64,000 nt of DNA, from the NCBI GenBank assembly GCA_947034885.2, contig OX344749.2, positions 26,303,501 to 26,367,500 on the forward strand, in the 5' to 3' direction. The first letter of the stretch is position 1, and each line of letters opens with the position of its first letter. The notes under the pieces were generated by a model. The model saw only the letters and a program-made list of their open reading frames with translations, was not told the DNA's origin and did no database searches. Made by a program: the position numbers and the translations under genes. This document shows, piece by piece, positions 7,484 to 58,727 of the stretch. Source of the DNA: Thuidium tamariscinum (Eukaryota; Streptophyta; Bryopsida; Hypnales; Thuidiaceae).

Positions 7484-8345
7484 TCAACTATCATGCAACT
7501 AGTTTTCAACTATTGTGTGACTAGCATTCAACTGGTAATTATTCTTCACTTTCCCCTCCCTTGATTGGTCCACAATTTTAGAAGCGCCGCCCTTTTTGGT
7601 GCAAACTCCTATTTTGGGAGTGCATAGCCACTTAGGATTTATGAAATAGGTTTAATTTACTAGCTAGGGATGCCAACAATTGACTCTATTCAAGACGCTC
7701 TACTAAGATAACTTTCTATAGACAATAATTTTAAGTCAAGAAAATTCATTTATTCTTGTCAACCTTGAGACATCATGAGAAGCTTTCTAATCTAGTACAT
7801 CTTGATTGACTGATTGACAAGTATAGGAAGAGATACGCATCTTAAGACATTAGTTCTCAAAAGATATGGCTATTTGGAAACATTTCCACTTTTTCATTAG
7901 AAATCTAAAACCTAAAGCTAGCATTGAAACCTCTTTTGCTTCGGAATGGACACTAGTTTTTGGTAACTTGAGGAATGGAATGTGGTACTTCACTATGCCT
8001 TGTGTTTTTTTTTAGGTCCTCCTTTTTGTCCTTTTAATTGAAGGGGGCTAACATTCGCCTCCCAACCTTTCATAGCATTCAACTAATGAACAACTACAAT
8101 ACAACTAGTTTTCAATTACGATACAACTAGCATTCAACTAGTGAACACCTACACTTCAACTAGATTTCAACTACCGTGCAATTAGCATTCAACTAGTAAA
8201 CAACTATAGAGCAATTAGTTTTCAACTATTGTACAACTAACTTTCAACTAGTTCTTAACTATTGTGCAACTAGCATTCAATTGGTGAGCAACTATAGTGC
8301 AACTACAATTCAACTAGTAAGTAACTACAATACATCTAAGAAGCA
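7484..8345. repeat. Degenerate minisatellite built on CAACTAG / CATTCAACTAG
   Basis: Two clusters, 7484-7535 and 8055-8345, repeat variants of TGCAACTAGCATTCAACTAG and TTTTCAACTATTGTGCAAC. The period is about 20-25 bp and mutations are frequent. Between the clusters is unremarkable AT-rich sequence. A related TTGCAACTAGTTGCAA-rich patch occurs at 9745-9970. Confidence 0.6.
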
Positions 8346-8373
8346 GCTAGGATTAAGTCTTATATCAATTGAT

Positions 8374-23111: not shown

Positions 23112-23384
23112 GTGACGTTAAATCAGTCCCATGAAGTCCTTGAGTTTACCACAAGGGTAAACACTGAAATTTTTTATTTTTTGTATACATTTTTTTTTTC
23201 AAATTCTGAGTTCATATTTGGCATCACAGACTCCAAATGAGTCTACAGAGAGTCAAATGCAACCAAAAAAACCAACAAAAATATAAACCCGAGACCTCAA
23301 TCAATCCCTAATAAAATGAATTTTACCTTACTAGAGCCACGTTCTATCCTTTTGTCGGGCCTTCATGGGACTGATTTAACGTCT
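23112..23384. repeat. Inverted repeat pair around a 220-bp spacer
   Basis: GACGTTAAATCAGTCCCATGAAG at 23114-23136 (23 bases; read as GACGTTAAATC plus AGTCCCATGAAG) recurs as its complement at 23360-23384. Outside the arms, GGCTTGCTTG and CAAGCTTGC-like words extend the symmetry loosely. Possibly a small MITE; the ends are not resolved. Confidence 0.5.
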
Positions 23385-31157: not shown

Positions 31158-31506
31158 CTATTCCTTGGCGCAGGTTCCTGCAGCGCAGTCACAGTTTCCG
31201 CACTTGCCTCCGTTCTCCTTGGCGCAGGTTCCTAAACTCACAGGCCACAAAACACACCATCAGTCACTGTGGAAACACGAGACTAAAGCCACCACTGCAC
31301 TGGTAGTGCCATCCATTGTGAAAAAGCTTATCCAGGCTGTGCATGTTGCAGTCACAAGTAAAGATACGAAGGAGAAGATGATGAAGACGAAGCGTCATCT
31401 CACCTGCAGCGCAGTCACAGTTGCCGCACTTGCCGCCATTCTCATTAGCGCAAGTTCCTGCGGCGCAGTTGCAGTTAGCGCCGCACTTGCCGTTATCCTT
31501 CGCCAT
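31158..31506 (-). CDS. Metallothionein-like Cys-repeat protein, copy 1, 58 aa, two exons
   Basis: Probable cytosolic metal chelator (Cu/Zn/Cd thiolate clusters), inferred from composition. Exons: 31506-31404 and 31231-31158 (GT-AG, 172-bp intron, phase 1). The 58-residue product has 12 Cys and no aromatic residue, and is three tandem modules of GGKCGNCDCAAGTCAKE type (C-x2-C-x-C-x4-C). The first module carries an extra residue (KCGANCNCAAGTC). There is no Cys-free linker between two Cys domains, unlike the usual angiosperm type 1-3 metallothioneins. Start: ATG at 31506, in CACAGCAATAGCCATGG-like context. A 5'UTR intron (31865-31560) and a TATA box (31926-31933) lie upstream. Its paralogue lies at 47317-47736 on the other strand. 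Confidence 0.85.
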
Positions 31507-31559
31507 GGCTATTGCTGTGAGGACGAGAGTGAATCGAAGCGTTGAATGATCGAGTAGTA

Positions 31560-39703: not shown

Positions 39704-41710
39704 ATTAGGTTTAACTGGTATGAAAGGTTAAGGAGGAGCACATCAAGAAATGATCCAACAATCCTTGCTTGATGGAGTATTCCCTTTGATAGATATAAAC
39801 ACTTCTCCAATAATGTGAAAATTTAATTGTTTTCCCTACCAAAAAATCCAATGTTTCCCTTGCAATAGGAATGTTCAATGATTTCTTGAATATTAACAAC
39901 ACAACGCAGGGAACAGTAAATTTATAAAAACCAACAGGGAAAACGTAGAGAACTTCCGGAACCTACACATGGGTGTTAGAAAAAGTTCCTTGTGTTGTAG
40001 TCTTGTGTTATACGCAAGGGTCATCAACATTAAAATGTCTTAGAAGATGGCTTTTGTTAAAATTATATCAAATTGAAGGGACAAACAATTTAGGTGAAGG
40101 CGAAATTTTAATTAAATTAATTGTAGAATATGTAGCATAGTATACATTTTTAGAAAGAAACTCACAATATATGTAAAGAATTGAAACACCTATGGGTAGT
40201 TTTTTTAAATCCATACAAGAATTTCCTTCCAACTAAAATTATTTCATTTATTAAAAAGCCCCCAAAATTGGATTGCCCTAGGTACGCAACTCTTGTATTA
40301 TATACAGGGGTCATCGGCATTAAAACAACTTAGAGGATGGATTTTGTTAAAATTATAGCAAATTAAAAAGACCAAAAAGTTAGGTGAAGGTCAAATTAAA
40401 AGAAAATTATATATAGAAAATGTTGCATTATATACATTCTAGAAAAAAATTCACAATATATATGAAGAATTAAAACACCTATGTATAGTTTTTAAAAAGC
40501 CATACAAAAAGTTTTTTCCAATTAAAATTAAATTTTTATTAAAAATCCCCAAAAGTTGGGTAGCTCACCCCATGATACATGTATTAAGAAACTCATATAA
40601 TTAGGTTTTTAATGCTCTTATTGCCCTCAAAAAATATTCATTTTACATATATAATTACATTTTTGGATTCCTTGTTAAAGGGGCTACAAGAATTTCCTAC
40701 ATTAGAATAAATTATATACTTTGAGAATAGATTAAAATGAATTAAAAGTGATTATAATCAAGGCCATTAGGCCATATAATATGGGAGTTGCATTTTTGGA
40801 TGGATAGCTTGGTCCAATAGTCCATGATACATGTAATTACAATTTTGGAATCCTTGTTAAAAAGGCTATAAGAATTTCCTACATTAAAGAAAATTATGTG
40901 CCTTAAAAGTGGATCAAAATGCATTTAAAAATGATCATATTTAAGGTTATATAATATGGGAATTGCATATGGAGGCATACAAACAATCAATTGCAAAAAC
41001 ATATCAAAATGTAACATTTTTAGTAATGAGTTGGAGTATCAACAAAAAAAAATATTAGATATTTAAATGAGTAGGTGCATTCAATTGTCTATAATATACT
41101 TTTCTTAAAAGTCATTGATTCAACTCTTTTGGTTCTAAATGGCTACATTGAATGAAGGCTTGCAATTAATTTTAAGTCTTAATAGCATCCATTTACCAAT
41201 TTTCATTTCATCTAATTTAAAATTTTTGAATTTACATAATTGATGTCTCCAACATTGAAAGTATACATTTTGGATTTTTATTCACTGATTGATGTATAAT
41301 ATTTTGCTTTGGTTCTTTTGATTTTGGAGATTATCACTATGCGGATTTTTAGAGATTCATTTAATCTTTCAAGGATGTGGGGACCAAAATTTGACATATG
41401 AATATATTGTAATTTGACTCACAACTCAATGATGTATCTCACGTATCCAAAATTCTTTTCAAGCCTTGAATTGTAAAGAATTTGAGCATTAGTAGAAAAA
41501 CATGTCCTAAATAATTCTTCACAATGACTAAAAAGTGTCTATAATGACTCATTTACATTCATTGTCAAAAATTTCAAGTCATTTTGAACAATCATTTAGG
41601 ACATGTTTTTTACAATTTTACTAGTCAAGGTCTCATTGTGCAATAGTAAACTTGTGATCATATTCAAGGGAATTTTTTTATTTTTTTATTTTTAAAAAAT
41701 TGAATATGTT
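39704..41710. repeat. AT-rich region with two local tandem duplications
   Basis: Units 39990-40280 and 40281-40566 are duplicates (shared AAGGGTCATC, GATGGCTTTTGTTAAAATTA, TTAGGTGAAGG, CACAATATATATGAAGAATT, AAACACCTATG). Units 40640-40800 and 40826-40980 are a second pair (TTGGATTCCTTGTTAAAGGG, AAGAATTTCCTACATTA, ATATAATATGGGAGTTGCAT). No gene is seen. Confidence 0.6.
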
Positions 41711-41930
41711 CACTATAAAAAAACTTGCATACTAGATAACAAATTCAAATTTTTTTAAATGGATTTTAGGTGATGTCAATGTTTACAACCCAATGTTTCT
41801 ATGTCAACAAAAACATTCAACATAATATCAATGTTGACATAAAAACATTGGGTTGTAAACATTGACATCGCCTAAAGTCCATTTAAAAGAATTTGGGCTT
41901 GTTACCCAAAACATGGGTTTCTTATAGTAG
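41711..41930. mobile_element. 220-bp inverted-repeat element with CACTA-like end
   Basis: The left end starts CACTATAAAAAAACTTG. The right end, reverse-complemented, is CTACTATAAGAAACCCATG. The inner arms pair strongly: GATGTCAATGTTTACAACCC and AATGTTTCTATGTCAAC at 41772-41810 against their complements at 41833-41872. CACTATAAGAAA-type termini resemble CACTA (En/Spm) ends, but the right end lacks a perfect TAGTG. It has no coding capacity. Confidence 0.5.
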
Positions 41931-43055: not shown

Positions 43056-43953
43056 GGGTGATTGCAAGAAACACTTGTACTATTTGTTGCGTTTCATCAA
43101 ACTCTAGTTTTTTATTTTTTTTAGCCATAACTTTTGTGCTTTAACTCCAAATGACTCAAAATTTATAGGGAATCTACTCATAGTTATTACGTATCTATAA
43201 TGAATTTTGGATATTTTTCAAAAATAATGTATTATTTTTAAATAGCCCTGAAAATTTCTTAGTGTACTTGATTAGGGGTTTCTAGCACCATTTATCTCCA
43301 AAAAAACAAATTTTGGCCTAAAATTTAGAGAAGATGGTCTCTTAGTAGATTCATAGCTACTATCCCAAAGAATTCTAAAAATACTTATTTTAATGTGTTT
43401 AAATTTTCTATGAGAATTATATGTCCAAAGTTTCGGTGAAGAAAATACAACTTGTGACATTTTAATTTGTAAAAAAATGGATCTAAAAAAGACACATAAA
43501 AATATAATACTTGAAAAAACTTTTTGGTGATGAAATTTGACCAAAAAATTCACCAAAATAATGTTTTATACCTTTAGAAAAAAATGCAAAATGAAGCTCT
43601 CTTTGTGAACTTCTACTACACATAAAAATAAGTATTTTTAGAATTACTTTGGACAGTAGCTATAAGTCTACTAAGACACCATCTTCTCCAAATTTTAGGT
43701 CAAAACTTGGTTTCTTTTAGATAAATGGTGCTAAAAAACCCTAAATCAATGATTGTGAGAAAATTTTGGGGCTATTTAAAAATAATAAATAATTTTTGAA
43801 AAATATCCAAAATTCAATATAGATACATAATAACTATGAGTAGCTTCCCTATACATTTTGAGTCATTTAGAATTAAAATACAAAAGTTATGGCAAAAAAA
43901 AAATCAAAAACTAGGATGTAACAAAAGGCTTTCAGTGTTTCTTATAATCACCC
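43056..43953. mobile_element. Palindromic (foldback) derivative of family 1, copy C
   Basis: 898 bp. Both ends are the family-1 terminus (GGGTGATTGCAAGAAACAC left; right end ends ATAATCACCC). The arms 43056-43405 and about 43600-43953 are reverse complements along their length; for example TAGTTATTACGTATCTATAA on the left pairs with TAGATACATAATAACTA on the right. Each arm corresponds to the left half of copy B, so the element is two left halves head to head around a ~200-bp loop. Flanked by ATATATAT on both sides. Confidence 0.75.
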
Positions 43954-45248: not shown

Positions 45249-46185
45249 GACCATCTCCACTGCAGCTCAGAATTTGGCTCAAACTGGGTATTTGGCCGGG
45301 TCAGCCAACTATCTGTACCCCACCCCACGCAAAATTAGACTCAAAATATGGCCGGGCGCGGCCAAATTTACTGGGCAGATGGGAAAATACTGAGTTTTAT
45401 CCAGGGGTCGGAAGGGAGTTTGACTGCACTTTTGACCCCGAAATCGAGGTCCAGACCCTGCTGACCTTCCAATTTCAATTTTTTTTTAAAAATGAAATGC
45501 TTACAAGCAATTTCATGTATAAAAATGAGAGAATTCTTATCTCAAAAAAAGATGAGTTCATAGTCTCTTTTATTGGGACTCCTCCCTCCACCCCAAGAGG
45601 ATGTATGGAGTTCAACCTTTCATGGAAACTCATATCTCCGTACACTCACAATGAAGTGTATGTAGGAAGAAGTGGGTTTGCAATGGAGCAAGGCTCCTTA
45701 TATCCCCATGGGGTGGAGGGAGGTGCTCCAATCCATGTGGGATATATGAATTCCAACAAGTTGGAACTAAAAATTTGAATTTTGAATTTTGAAAATCCAA
45801 TAAAAATATTGGATTTTCAAAATTCAAAATTCAAATTTTTAGTTCCAACTTATTGGAATTCATATATCCCACATGGATTGGAGCACCTCCCTCCACCCCA
45901 TGGGGATGTAAGGAGCCTTGCTCCATTGCAAATTTGAAATATTTTGAGATCTCCTCACACAAAGAGAATGAGACCTCATAGGAAAAAAAGCCAATGTTTT
46001 TGGGTTTTAATTCAAGGCAAACTAACTGAAAAATTGGATTTAAAAACTTGAAAATGTCATTTAGAGGGTTGCTTGCACTGTTCAGCAGTGGGGCTCTCCA
46101 ACTCTGGCCGGGATGAATCATAATCATCTGCCCTGCAAAGGGGCTGATTTTGAGTCAAATTCTGACCCATGCGGTGGGGATGCTC
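45249..46185. mobile_element. PIF/Harbinger-like (Tourist-type) non-autonomous element, 937 bp, with an internal palindrome
   Basis: Ends GACCATCTCCACTG (left) and, reverse-complemented, GAGCATCCCCACCG (right), each flanked by TAA (45246-45248 and 46186-46188), fit the 3-bp TWA target duplication of Harbinger elements. Inside, 45677-45933 is a near-perfect palindrome with ~125-bp arms (CCCCATGGGGTGGAGGGAGG, GAATTCCAACAAGTTGGAAC and their complements). The symmetric frames this creates on both strands (AMEQGSLYPHGVEGG and AMEQGSLHPHGVEGG) are by-products, not genes. GC is higher than the flanks. Confidence 0.65.
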
Positions 46186-47316: not shown

Positions 47317-47736
47317 ATGGCCAAGGATACCGGCAAGTGCGGCAACTGCGACTGCCCCGCAGGAACTTGCGCCAAGGAGGATGGCGGCAAGTGCGGCAAC
47401 TGTGACTGCCCTGCAGGTAAGGGATCGATAACTGATGCTTCATCTTCTCTTCATCACCCGCTTCGATCGATTCTCCTTCGCAGCTCCCTTAATTGTGACG
47501 ACTGCAACGTACACGCACGCATGCATAGCTAGAGTTAATTAATTAAGCACTTCACTGTTGATGAATGGCCGGTGCCCGATCAGTGGTGGTCTCTCGATCT
47601 CTTGTTTCCGTGGTGGCTGACTGGTACGGTGTGTTTGAATTTGTGGCTTGTGATTAATTTAGGAACCTGCGCCAAGGAGAGCGGAGGCAAGTGCGGAAAC
47701 TGTGACTGCGCTGCAGGAACCTGCGCCAAGGAATAG
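47317..47736 (+). CDS. Metallothionein-like Cys-repeat protein, copy 2, 57 aa, two exons
   Basis: Paralogue of the gene at 31158-31506, opposite strand, about 16 kb away. Exons: 47317-47416 and 47663-47736; the 246-bp intron sits at the identical phase-1 site after GCAG. Three modules, GKCGNCDCPAGTCAKE, GKCGNCDCPAGTCAKE and GKCGNCDCAAGTCAKE, carry 12 Cys with identical spacing and a short Glu/Asp/Ser-Gly-Gly joint. Pro replaces Ala in modules 1 and 2. Exon 2 differs from copy 1 at a single base (Ser versus Asn codon), while exon 1 has eight substitutions and a codon indel. Start: the only ATG before the first Cys module, context GCAGCCATGG. Probably a cytosolic metal chelator. Confidence 0.87.
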
Positions 47737-47881
47737 ACTCCTGGCATGGCGCTAGAACTAGTCCTCATGGCACCCAGTATATTCACATGGCACCCTGCGT
47801 TTGAAGCCAGGGTGTGGATGAGTGCAATGCAGGCGTAGAAAAAATTCAAGTGTTTGTAGAGCTCTTTGTAATTAACTATGG

Positions 47882-54093: not shown

Positions 54094-55880
54094 ATAGATG
54101 TACAGTGGGGTACCAATCAAAATGTTGTTTTCGAATTCGCAGTGAGAAAAATTTCAATACTACCAACTTTGGTATTTTACCACAAAATTTTTACTATAGC
54201 ATCATCTTTAAGTTAATTATGTGTATGCCAAATTTCAAGGCCAAAACATTCACCGAAAAAAAGTTATTCAAAATCTACCAACATGGGTAGTGGTGAGAAA
54301 CATTTCACTACTTTCAACTTTGACACCTTCTTAAGGATTGAGCTTTTTTCTGCCATGAAATTTTTGTCATGAAACAATCTTTATGTTTTTAATATGCATA
54401 AAAAATTTCAAGGTAAAAAAATGTTTTTTTAAGAAGATATTTGAAATCTCCCAAGAGGTGTAGTTTTGAGAAAATTTTCACAATTGCCAACTTTGACACC
54501 CTCCCAAGGGCTGAAAATTTGGTTTTTTACCATGAATTTTTTTTTGTGAAGTCATCTCTATATTCATAATATGAGCTACAAATTTCAAGTTCAAATGAAT
54601 TCTCAAAAAAAAAAATATACAAAATCTCCCAACATGTGTAGTTGTGAGAAGGAGTTTTTGAGCCCTTAGTATAGTGTTATTTTGTGGAGCAAAGTTTGAC
54701 ACGAATGTAAGAACTCAACCTCACAACTACACATGTTGAGAGATTTTGAATAACTTTTTTCAGGTAAGTATTTTAAACTTGAAATTTGGAACATATATTA
54801 TCAACATAAATTTGATCTTATTCAAAAAAATTCATGTTAAACAGACAAATTTTCAGCCCTTGGGAGGGTGTCAAAGTTGGCAATTGTGAAAAATTTCTCA
54901 AAACTACACCTCTTGGGAGATTTCAAATATCTTCTTTAAAAAACATTTTTTTACCTTGAAATTTTTTATGCATATTAAAAACATAGAGATTGTTTCATGG
55001 CAAAAATTTCATGGCAAAAAAAAAAAACTCAATCCTTAACCCATTAAGGACCGTGGTTGATTTAGGGGGCAGACGTAGTTTTTGAACACAATTTTCAAAA
55101 AGTGTAGTTTTCTACCTTCTTAAAAGATGTAATTCTAGATCGGATTGAATAAATGAGTTCCATGGGTTAAGTCCTTGAACCACTCAAAAAATAAAAGTGA
55201 TCCAACGGTTCATGTCTTTGTAATTACTCTTCAAACATTGATGTATCATAAATACCCTTTGGCACTGGTTATAATTAGGGTTTGCTACAATTGGATATAG
55301 ATTTGAATATATTGTTGGAAATAGACCAAAACCTTTCAATTTATTATTTCAAACACACACATAATTGTCCTTTCCATAAAATATGCATTTTTCATTGAAA
55401 ATTTCAATATGAAAGGTTGGACCATTTCAAGTTTGGCCAAGCACAACTCACTCATTTTTGCACACATTCTCTTGAAATTGGTTTTGTTAGATGCACATAA
55501 AGACACTCTAAATACGTTCTTCTCTAAGTCTTTTGAGTTCAAATGCTCTACAAATTATAGGAGACAGAAAGTCCTCAAATCAACCCAAAAGTGGTCAACC
55601 GGTCCTTAATGGGTTAAGACGGTGTCAAAGTTGAAAGTAGTGAAATATTTCTCACCACTACCCATGTTGGTAGATTTTGAATAACTTTTTTTCTGTGAAT
55701 GTTTTGGCCTTGAAATTTGGCATATATATAATTAACTTAAATATGATGCTGTAGTAAAAGTTTCCTGATAAAATACCAATTTTTGAGCTCTCGGGAGGCT
55801 TTAAAAGTTGGCAATAGTGAAATTTTTCTCACTGCGAATTCGAAAACAACATTTTGATTGGTACCCCACTGTACATCTAT
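54094..55880. mobile_element. Palindromic TIR element with repeated subunits, interrupted by a later insertion
   Basis: Terminal arms ATAGATGTACAGTGGGGTAC (left) and its complement (right, 55861-55880); CAGTGGGG ends are flanked by TA. Symmetry continues inward for ~600 bp to a centre near 54690. Each arm holds about four ~150-200-bp subunits built on CCAACTTTGACACC / CTACCAACATGGGTAG / CTCCCAAGAGGTGTAG / CTCCCAACATGTGTAG themes. Removing the 574-bp insertion and one TTAA leaves about 1.2 kb. TA flanks and CAG ends hint at Tc1/mariner; no transposase is present. Confidence 0.72.
55040..55613. mobile_element. piggyBac-like non-autonomous element (574 bp) flanked by TTAA
   Basis: Ends CCCATTAAGGACCG (left) and its exact complement at the right give 14-bp perfect TIRs, loosely extended by GGTTGATTT-type sub-terminal repeats. 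Direct TTAA copies flank it (55036-55039 and 55614-55617), the hallmark target of piggyBac. The empty site is visible in the opposite palindrome arm near 54333-54352 (ACACCTTCTTAAGGATTG). No transposase is inside. Confidence 0.75.
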
Positions 55881-57329
55881 GAAGATGATGTTTTTGAGTC
55901 TACTAGTACATTTGGGTATCCCTATTTAATGTGCATAGCTTTATGAAATTATATTTAGTACATTAGCAATTGAAAATCATGGATTTTCATAAATAAAAAA
56001 TAGAAGTTCTTTGAATTTATATAAATACTCTATTACATCTTGAAATTCCACACTATGATGTCCTCCAAACCATTTTTTGCACTCATGAACATATAATATA
56101 AAACATTTTATATTGCTTGCATCTAAATATTTTGAAAACAACTTTATGATTTAAGTTGATTTTAGGGACTTTCACCTTATCCTTTAGTCTTATCAATTGA
56201 CACTCCTTCATATGTCTAATTTATTTACCATTTGCATGTGTGTTCACAACTTGACCTCTAAATGCTTAAGGCCATTTTTTGAATTTCTTCAAGTTTTTTT
56301 CTAATCTAAACAAATATTGAAGTTTGATAAGTCTCATCAATTTTTTATAAAGTACAATTGTACAATCTTAAAGTAGACATGCCATAGAATTAAAAATTTA
56401 TTAATAATCAATTAGGAAAAGAAAGACTTGAAAATTTGAAAGTGATTCTAAATCTTTCAATCTTCTCTTTACAAGTCAAATCTTAAATTGTGGTTTCTAT
56501 GAAAAAAAATTAAAAAAAGTTTATGGGTATAACATATATAATCACAATGAATTTGCAACTTCTCAAAATCTACTCTAGAATTTTTGTAAGTGTGTAACAT
56601 TGATCAATTTTTTATTACTTCACCTAATGATTGAATGAAATTAGAACAAATTGTGTCAAAATTGAGAATTTATTTCTAGGTCTTTCAAAGTCAAAATGAC
56701 CTCACCATGTTTCATGATAGAGAAATTTTACTTTTTTGGAAGAAATTACTTTACACTTAAAAAATTAGCTTTGCCTTGATGCCAAACTCAAAGCGACCCA
56801 AAAATTCAAGTCCAAGATTAGAAAATGGTTTTTCAAAAGTCCTGAAGTTGCCTCCTTGCCTTCACCTTCACCTTCAAATTTTGCCAGCCAGCAATTGCAA
56901 TTCTCCTCTTCGAAATGTTCCACACTTTCATGTCGACTTTCTGTTTTCTTTTCTGCAAAGTTTGCCCGAATTTATCCATGCTAGTCCGCTCTGACTATCT
57001 TATTTCGACGTAGATTCTGTTTTTCAATTCGTTGCCTCCATCTCCTTTCGTGATTCGGTTTCAAAGCTCTCGGGTCACTTGGAGGGATCCCTGAATTAGA
57101 GTTCGTATCGTCTGTCGACCGGAGTGTACAGGTGTAGATTCTCGAATACTGATTCAGAGTCGGAGAAATCGATCGACATGGCGTGATTTACCGCCACATT
57201 GGAGCACATTGGAGCAGATTCCAGGTTTAGGGTTTAGGATTCTATTCGTGAATTGATGGGTATGGTGATCTGCACGACATCGCTGGCGGGTTTCTAACCA
57301 GCTATCTACTCTCTTTCGCTGCCACCACC
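55881..57329. other. AT-rich spacer, then cytochrome b5 promoter/leader
   Basis: 55881-56770 is AT-rich and gene-free. From about 56770 GC rises toward the cytochrome b5 start. A telo-box-like GTTTAGGGTTTAGG at 57224-57237 lies in the leader, an element known from plant 5' regions. Confidence 0.45.
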
Positions 57330-58727
57330 ATGACGACGGTGTTCACATTGGCCGAGGTGGAAAAGCACAAGGGGCGTGGTGATTGTTGGCTCATCATTCA
57401 CGACAAGGTTCGGGACGTCTCCCTCCTCGTCTTGGCAATGGCTGAATCTGACGGATGGAACATTTGCAATGGATTCTTGACCAGCGTGGGGGTTCGGTGT
57501 TGGCATGCAGGTATATGATGTGTCGCGGTATGCAGAGGAGCATCCGGGTGGAGACCAAGTGCTCTTTGCTGCAACAGGTAAAAGCCCAGCACTTCAGGGA
57601 GAGGATATTACAAGTGTCACTTGAATGCATTTTAGAATATTGAATGTGATTTTGGGGAGAGCGGTTTAAACTATCGAGCTCTGGAGAGATCACCTTGGTT
57701 AGGACAACCAAATCTTTTGAGATCAAAAATCTGTTGAGATTGAATATTTATCACTGTCATAAAGTTCTTGCGCAATTGTTCATAGAAAGTGGAATGCATT
57801 ACATCACTATAACTAAGGTATGCATACCCATAATCAACAGTGTCCCAAAATGAAACACCTACATTTGGATCAAACAAAAAATTAAATATTGATTTTACAA
57901 GATGTATAAAACTAGATGTACACAACAAAAAAGATGAATCTATGAGAATCTAATGTTGGTTTTTGGTACGCATAGAGATGTCCAAATATTGCATGCCAAA
58001 GTGTGCTGAAATCTGTTCACTTGTGAATTAGATCCGATGAAAATAATATATGTTTGATAGTAGTAATTATGTTCAATCCCTTCTCATAATTAGTGATGAT
58101 TATAAATGAGTGTACATACGTTGCACATCCAAATCTCATTCAAAGAGAGAAATCCAATATGGACATTTGACCTAACTTTTGTGTCCATTTCATTTCTAGT
58201 GTATCCTATTCTATCATCTTAGGACATTGACAATGAAATTCTTCAAAAATTCCATAGATGGGCATTTTAGATACCTCCTGTGCATAGATATTTAGCCAAC
58301 AGTAAGCTTGCACCTTGCCAACATACACGCGTATGCATATATGAATTGCTATTAGTAACAAGGTTCAGTATCGAGGACCGGATCAGGTCCCTTAGAACGG
58401 CTTAAGTTTCCTTGAATCTCTCCATAGCCATGTCTCTAGAGATGAATGTGAGAATTGGAAGTTGAATGGTTGGCAGGCAAGGATGCAACTTTCGAGTTCG
58501 ATGATCGTGGGCACAGCGATGACGCCCAGGAGTTGATGTCGCAATTTGTGATCGGCGCCATCGACGTGACCACCCTCCCCGTGCAGCCCGGCCCCTGGAA
58601 GGACCCCAGATTTCCATCCCGCAGCCTCTCGGAGATGTTCATTGGATTGTTGCCATTCCTGATTCCGCTCTCGATTCTGGCAATAGCGCTTTGTGTGAAA
58701 TTTCTCAACCACAGCCCAAGGAGCTAG
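57330..58727 (+). CDS. CYTB5: Cytochrome b5, tail-anchored, 131 aa, three exons
   Basis: Small ER electron carrier that donates electrons to desaturases, hydroxylases and some P450s. Exons: 57330-57407, 57511-57577, 58477-58727 (396 nt). Heme-ligand His37 sits in EEHPGGDQVLFAATG and His61 in DRGHSDDA; the 24-residue spacing is standard. The C-terminal anchor is residues 102-122 (FIGLLPFLIPLSILAIALCV), followed by a short lumenal tail KFLNHSPRS. Length is normal for plant microsomal b5. The first donor (AAG|GTTCGG) is non-consensus after GT but gives the family-expected junction. Intron 2 (899 bp) is AT-rich, suggesting repeat-derived sequence inside it. Start: ATG at 57330, before TVFTLAEVEKHK. 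Confidence 0.95.

Follow-up and report, generated by a model that had tools for sequence, protein, structure and literature searches.

A 574-bp TTAA-flanked insertion with piggyBac-like ends and its empty sister site within one palindrome of the moss Thuidium tamariscinum

Introduction

Elements of the piggyBac superfamily are DNA transposons that duplicate TTAA and carry terminal inverted repeats (TIRs) of 4–24 bp. Usually, these repeats start with CCC, and CCCAT is among the four recurrent 5′ motifs given in the relevant section of PMC10813416. A study of corals gives CC[C/T]T as the piggyBac terminal hallmark, and the piggyBac-like element AmiPB4, tabulated in the same study, begins with CCCATT (PMC2872659). 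The ends and internal repeats of piggyBac have been described as asymmetric (PMC7351741, PMC2874221). Excision can restore TTAA seamlessly, with no footprint (PMC7351741), and seamless excision has been reported in rice, too, with a piggyBac of animal origin (cited in PMC5505980). For the classification of non-autonomous elements, Repbase applies the rule of an equal length of the target-site duplication (TSD) and at most one mismatch over the first 11 bases to a classified element (PMC4455052).

To date, piggyBac-type elements have been examined in depth in animals, and few accounts of them concern land plants. An earlier note on the DNA analyzed here had called piggyBac-type elements sparse in land plants, which is not to say absent: a fern genome tabulates 1230 PiggyBac-labelled copies, a figure that stems from an automatic repeat table (PMC6890710). 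The other plant mentions of piggyBac in the literature searched are general statements, as far as the sections of PMC2874221 and PMC10813416 concerned go. No paper in that literature was found to treat PiggyBac together with Gypsy, Copia and mosses, and in the searched text of the moss genome paper PMC10619864, the sole match for piggyBac is the word "piggybacking".

Structure of the Inserted Element

The window, i.e., the whole stretch of 64,000 nucleotides that was analyzed, contains a non-coding segment enclosed by two copies of TTAA, with the following features.

55036–55039, no strand: left TTAA copy of the target-site duplication
55040–55613, no strand: inserted element, non-coding, 574 bp; 33.8% G+C; longest stop-free stretch 94 codons
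55040–55053, plus strand: left terminal inverted repeat (14 bp), CCCATTAAGGACCG
55600–55613, minus strand: right terminal inverted repeat (14 bp), CCCATTAAGGACCG
55614–55617, no strand: right TTAA copy of the target-site duplication

The TIR CCCATTAAGGACCG is perfect between the two ends of the element (14/14 bp), and TTAA lies directly outside each of them. The element starts with CCCATTAAGGACCG and closes with its reverse complement, in agreement with the CCC/GGG termini of the piggyBac superfamily; in short form, the termini read CCCATTAAGG. The earlier note had proposed an element of 574 bp with perfect 14-bp TIRs and exact TTAA on both sides, and its coordinates proved exact. We estimate a probability of about 0.75 that this segment is a non-autonomous (MITE-like) element that was moved by a TTAA-specific transposase of the piggyBac type.

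A frame of transposase length is absent from the 574-bp element, where 94 codons is the maximum without a stop; movement, if any, would therefore be in trans. A coding role was also considered and rejected: in a six-frame comparison with Pfam, the element gave a single sub-threshold match in one frame (Castor1_N, E 0.026, 14.8 bits against a cut-off of 26.5). The element contains no RNA family at the gathering threshold and no tRNA. When folded as DNA, it shows a z value of −2.29, with 2 of 100 shuffles equally or more stable, and the TIRs would largely account for this stability.

No second copy of the element is present in the 64-kb window, in which TTAACCCATTAAGGACCG, with up to three mismatches allowed, matches the two element ends only. 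Relatives were likewise absent from plasmids and phages (blastn) and from viral contigs and prokaryote genomes (pattern scans), all of which are collections where plant copies are not expected.

Comparison with Published piggyBac Ends

The fourth base of the element is A, in place of the T of CC[C/T]T. Given the CCCATT of AmiPB4 (PMC2872659) and the CCCAT motif (PMC10813416), however, CC[C/T]T is a loose criterion. The first 11 bases of the element were compared with 15 published ends, all from one coral paper (PMC2872659). The nearest of these was the right end of coral AmiPB2, with 9/11 identical bases, followed by CMITE II and the left end of AmiPB2 (8/11 each). A best value of 9/11, obtained among a small set of 15 published ends, falls short of the agreement laid down in the Repbase rule. 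Random 11-mers matched the set of 15 ends equally well in 15 of 20,000 cases. With the CCC start fixed, 1005 of 20,000 were equally good, and most of the terminal resemblance is therefore CCC; the similarity to these ends beyond CCC is weak.

Inside the TIRs, a 9-bp repeat is spaced unequally at the two ends.

55055–55063, plus strand: subterminal GGTTGATTT of the left end, 1 bp inward from the TIR; suggestive, not significant
55577–55585, minus strand: subterminal GGTTGATTT of the right end, 14 bp inward from the TIR; suggestive, not significant

The asymmetric spacing of GGTTGATTT was scored equally well by 250 of 2000 local controls and by 132 of 2000 window controls. Separately, a third, outward-facing TTAACCCAT lies inside the element on the minus strand (55162–55170), so that 55040–55161 is likewise bounded by TTAA-adjacent CCCAT ends. 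At least three TTAACCCAT occurred in 6 of 100 shuffled windows, and the third one could be due to chance.

The Palindrome and Its Empty Sister Site

The element is located in the right arm of a palindrome, the left arm of which carries a single TTAA at the corresponding position.

about 54094–55880, no strand: host palindrome (fold-back repeat) with the ends ATAGATGTACAGTGGGG...CCCCACTGTACATCTAT; related units of about 173 bp in the arms
54331–54334, no strand: empty site, single TTAA, in the left (sister) arm, within ACACCTTCTTAAGGATTG (54323–54340)

Three ungapped stretches of the two arms show identities of 151/162, 72/75, and 191/201, and a short one beside the insertion site adds 8/9. The alignment of the arms breaks at TTAA, and 574 bp of the right arm have no counterpart in the left arm. 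When the flanks of the insert are joined and compared with the left arm, the match runs unbroken across CTCAATCCTTAAGA; TTAA is present twice in the filled right arm and once in the empty left arm. The empty site claimed in the earlier note is real, uninterrupted, and in the other arm, although the position quoted there (54333–54352) is about 10 bp too high. Generally, two alleles or two species are needed for such a comparison, whereas here a filled and an empty site within one palindrome fix the boundaries of the element at a single locus. The palindrome at 54094–55880 itself resembles a fold-back element, with the ends GATGTACAGTGGGG and TA flanking on both sides.

No other gap between the arms comes close to the 574-bp insert in size; the others include a 26-bp gap (about 55780–55805, in the right arm) and several of 3–13 bp. 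Such differences in length are what a reading without any transposition can draw on, namely that the left arm suffered a deletion or that the assembly is faulty here. A chance deletion, however, would not have its endpoints at the outer borders of perfect TIRs with a single TTAA remaining, and this reading is hardly credible.

The frequency of TTAA-abutting inverted pairs was assessed by simulating 60 first-order Markov windows with the dinucleotide frequencies of the window, considering inverted pairs 100–3000 bp apart. Perfect 14-bp pairs abutting TTAA were found three times in the window and in none of the 60 simulated windows. Pairs with at least 12/14 matches numbered 10 in the window, against a simulated mean of 0.18 and a maximum of 2. 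However, not all of this excess consists of transposons: the arms of the present palindrome account for four of the 10 pairs, and two more fall within palindromes elsewhere in the window. The three perfect pairs are 54389/54978 (the palindrome itself), 23118/23379, and the 574-bp element. The strongest argument for an insertion is the coincidence of the TIR edges with the gap in the alignment of the arms, which is independent of the pair count.

Several other repeats were observed in the window. At 23114–23383, a second element-like structure has perfect 23-bp inverted arms GACGTTAAATCAGTCCCATGAAG about 270 bp apart, with TTAA within the arms and no clear target-site duplication outside them. 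A near-perfect hairpin of 256 bp (45677–45932) has arms that are 98% complementary and a loop of 4 nt, and the arms of a long palindrome at 43108–43909 are 86–87% complementary. Smaller palindromes are found at 41496–41610 and 41737–41904, and a tandem array of an 11-bp unit with a CAACTA core at 8073–8349.

Order of Palindrome Formation and Insertion

According to the earlier note, the date of the insertion relative to palindrome formation could be read from this one locus. This claim is weaker than it was worded, as a footprint-free excision would also give an empty arm (PMC7351741). Both arms may have carried the element at the time of palindrome formation, with a clean excision from the left one later. 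Since piggyBac excises without a trace, the empty arm could be such a product, and the seamless excision on which this order depends has been described (PMC7351741; PMC5505980). Yet one additional event is required, and the left arm bears no mark of a former insert, though none would be expected; we regard a later excision as unlikely. Insertion after palindrome formation is the simpler order, which is not to say that it is proven.

Target-Site Duplication and Other Transposon Classes

The site is equally symmetric under three readings: a TTAA TSD with 14-bp CCC ends, a TA TSD with 15-bp ACCC ends, or no TSD with 16-bp AACCC ends. A duplication longer than TTAA is not possible because the adjoining bases differ in either direction. 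For this single copy, the TTAA duplication of the piggyBac superfamily is found, and a TA duplication yields the identical product; with one copy, TA with ACCC...GGGT ends is indistinguishable from TTAA with CCC...GGG ends.

The single site would therefore also fit a Tc1/mariner-type element that duplicated TA, carries the 15-bp TIRs ACCCATTAAGGACCG, and landed in TTAA by chance. The TIR is perfect over 15 bp under TA (16 bp without a TSD), and TA is a very common target among eukaryotes. However, the window has 4512 TA sites, of which only 481 stand in TTAA, and the TA reading would thus involve a chance event of about 1 in 9. Plant mariner-type elements have ends such as CTCCCTCC, unlike ACCC. 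Overall, a Tc1/mariner origin has a low probability.

The TTAA duplication is also shared by two other superfamilies, Sola3 and Kolobok. For Kolobok, this duplication is published together with records from chlorophytes and rhodophytes (PMC9587614). The published termini of Kolobok are RR/YY (PMC9587614), whereas the element has CC/GG at a boundary that is fixed by the empty site. An inner TTAA (TIR bases 5–8, followed by GGACCG) was considered as an alternative Kolobok boundary, at which GG would fit RR. This candidate was rejected: the empty site lacks CCCA/TGGG, and CCCA therefore belongs to the insert. We assign either of these superfamilies a very low probability.

Neighboring Genes

A minus-strand gene next to the palindrome encodes 26S proteasome subunit 4 (RPT2). 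Relative to its likely start codon, the palindrome begins 624 bp and the insert 1570 bp upstream. The best match of this subunit is chain 8amz_I, from a spinach proteasome. A cytochrome b5-like frame lies on the plus strand at 57252–57515. The window also encodes an aquaporin (MIP, E 1.4e-20), relatives of which were not found in viral contigs. Both the aquaporin and the proteasome match agree with a plant origin, and the gene set gives the impression of a moss or some other non-flowering plant. Two inverted, related cysteine-rich repeat clusters are located at 31177–31513 and 47324–47749; read by eye, these clusters (GKCGNCDC...) are putative metallothionein-like genes.

Proposed Origin and Significance

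Of the piggyBac-like reading in the earlier note, the data support an insertion of transposon type into TTAA, ends resembling those of piggyBac, and a sister site that is empty and intact. The piggyBac assignment is formally unproven; whatever its family filing, the element likely behaves as a TTAA-specific cut-and-paste type. The family of the transposase, its action in trans, and the order from palindrome to insertion are parts that we infer. A transposase of the piggyBac kind would be, or would formerly have been, encoded elsewhere in the genome and would recognize the CCC...GGG ends. Nicking at the CCC ends would produce TTAA hairpins, followed by joining across staggered cuts in a target TTAA, here one in the right arm of a pre-existing palindrome, so that TTAA would be duplicated. 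The steps of nicking, hairpin formation, and joining are those described for piggyBac (PMC7351741).

In itself, the element is a clean single example of an already known kind of element. A further-reaching reading is that the element belongs to an endogenous land-plant piggyBac family, that this family includes, or did until recently, an autonomous copy encoding a functional DDD transposase, and that the family was mobile once the palindrome existed. This is possible, but we hold it only tentatively. If true, it would mean a footprint-free TTAA transposon native to a plant lineage, where such elements have hardly been described, and a native plant family would bear on the spread of the superfamily and on seamless-excision tools for plants.

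Comparison with Known Systems

Among described elements, the piggyBac/TTAA MITEs of corals (CMITEs) share with the present element the TTAA duplication, TIRs of 13–14 bp that start from CCC, and the lack of coding capacity (PMC2872659). Yet, the CMITEs are about 100 bp long, compared with 574 bp here; the fourth base stated for them is T and not A (PMC2872659), and the present host is a plant. Tc1/mariner-type MITEs are compatible in the TA duplication and differ in that the TTAA context must be attributed to chance. Kolobok has the TTAA duplication in common and differs in its RR/YY termini (PMC9587614), as opposed to CC/GG. The piggyBac of Trichoplusia ni shares the TTAA target, a TIR of the 13-bp class, and a subterminal repeat that is spaced unequally at the two ends, whereas the present element lacks a transposase and its subterminal repeat is 9 bp long and not significant.
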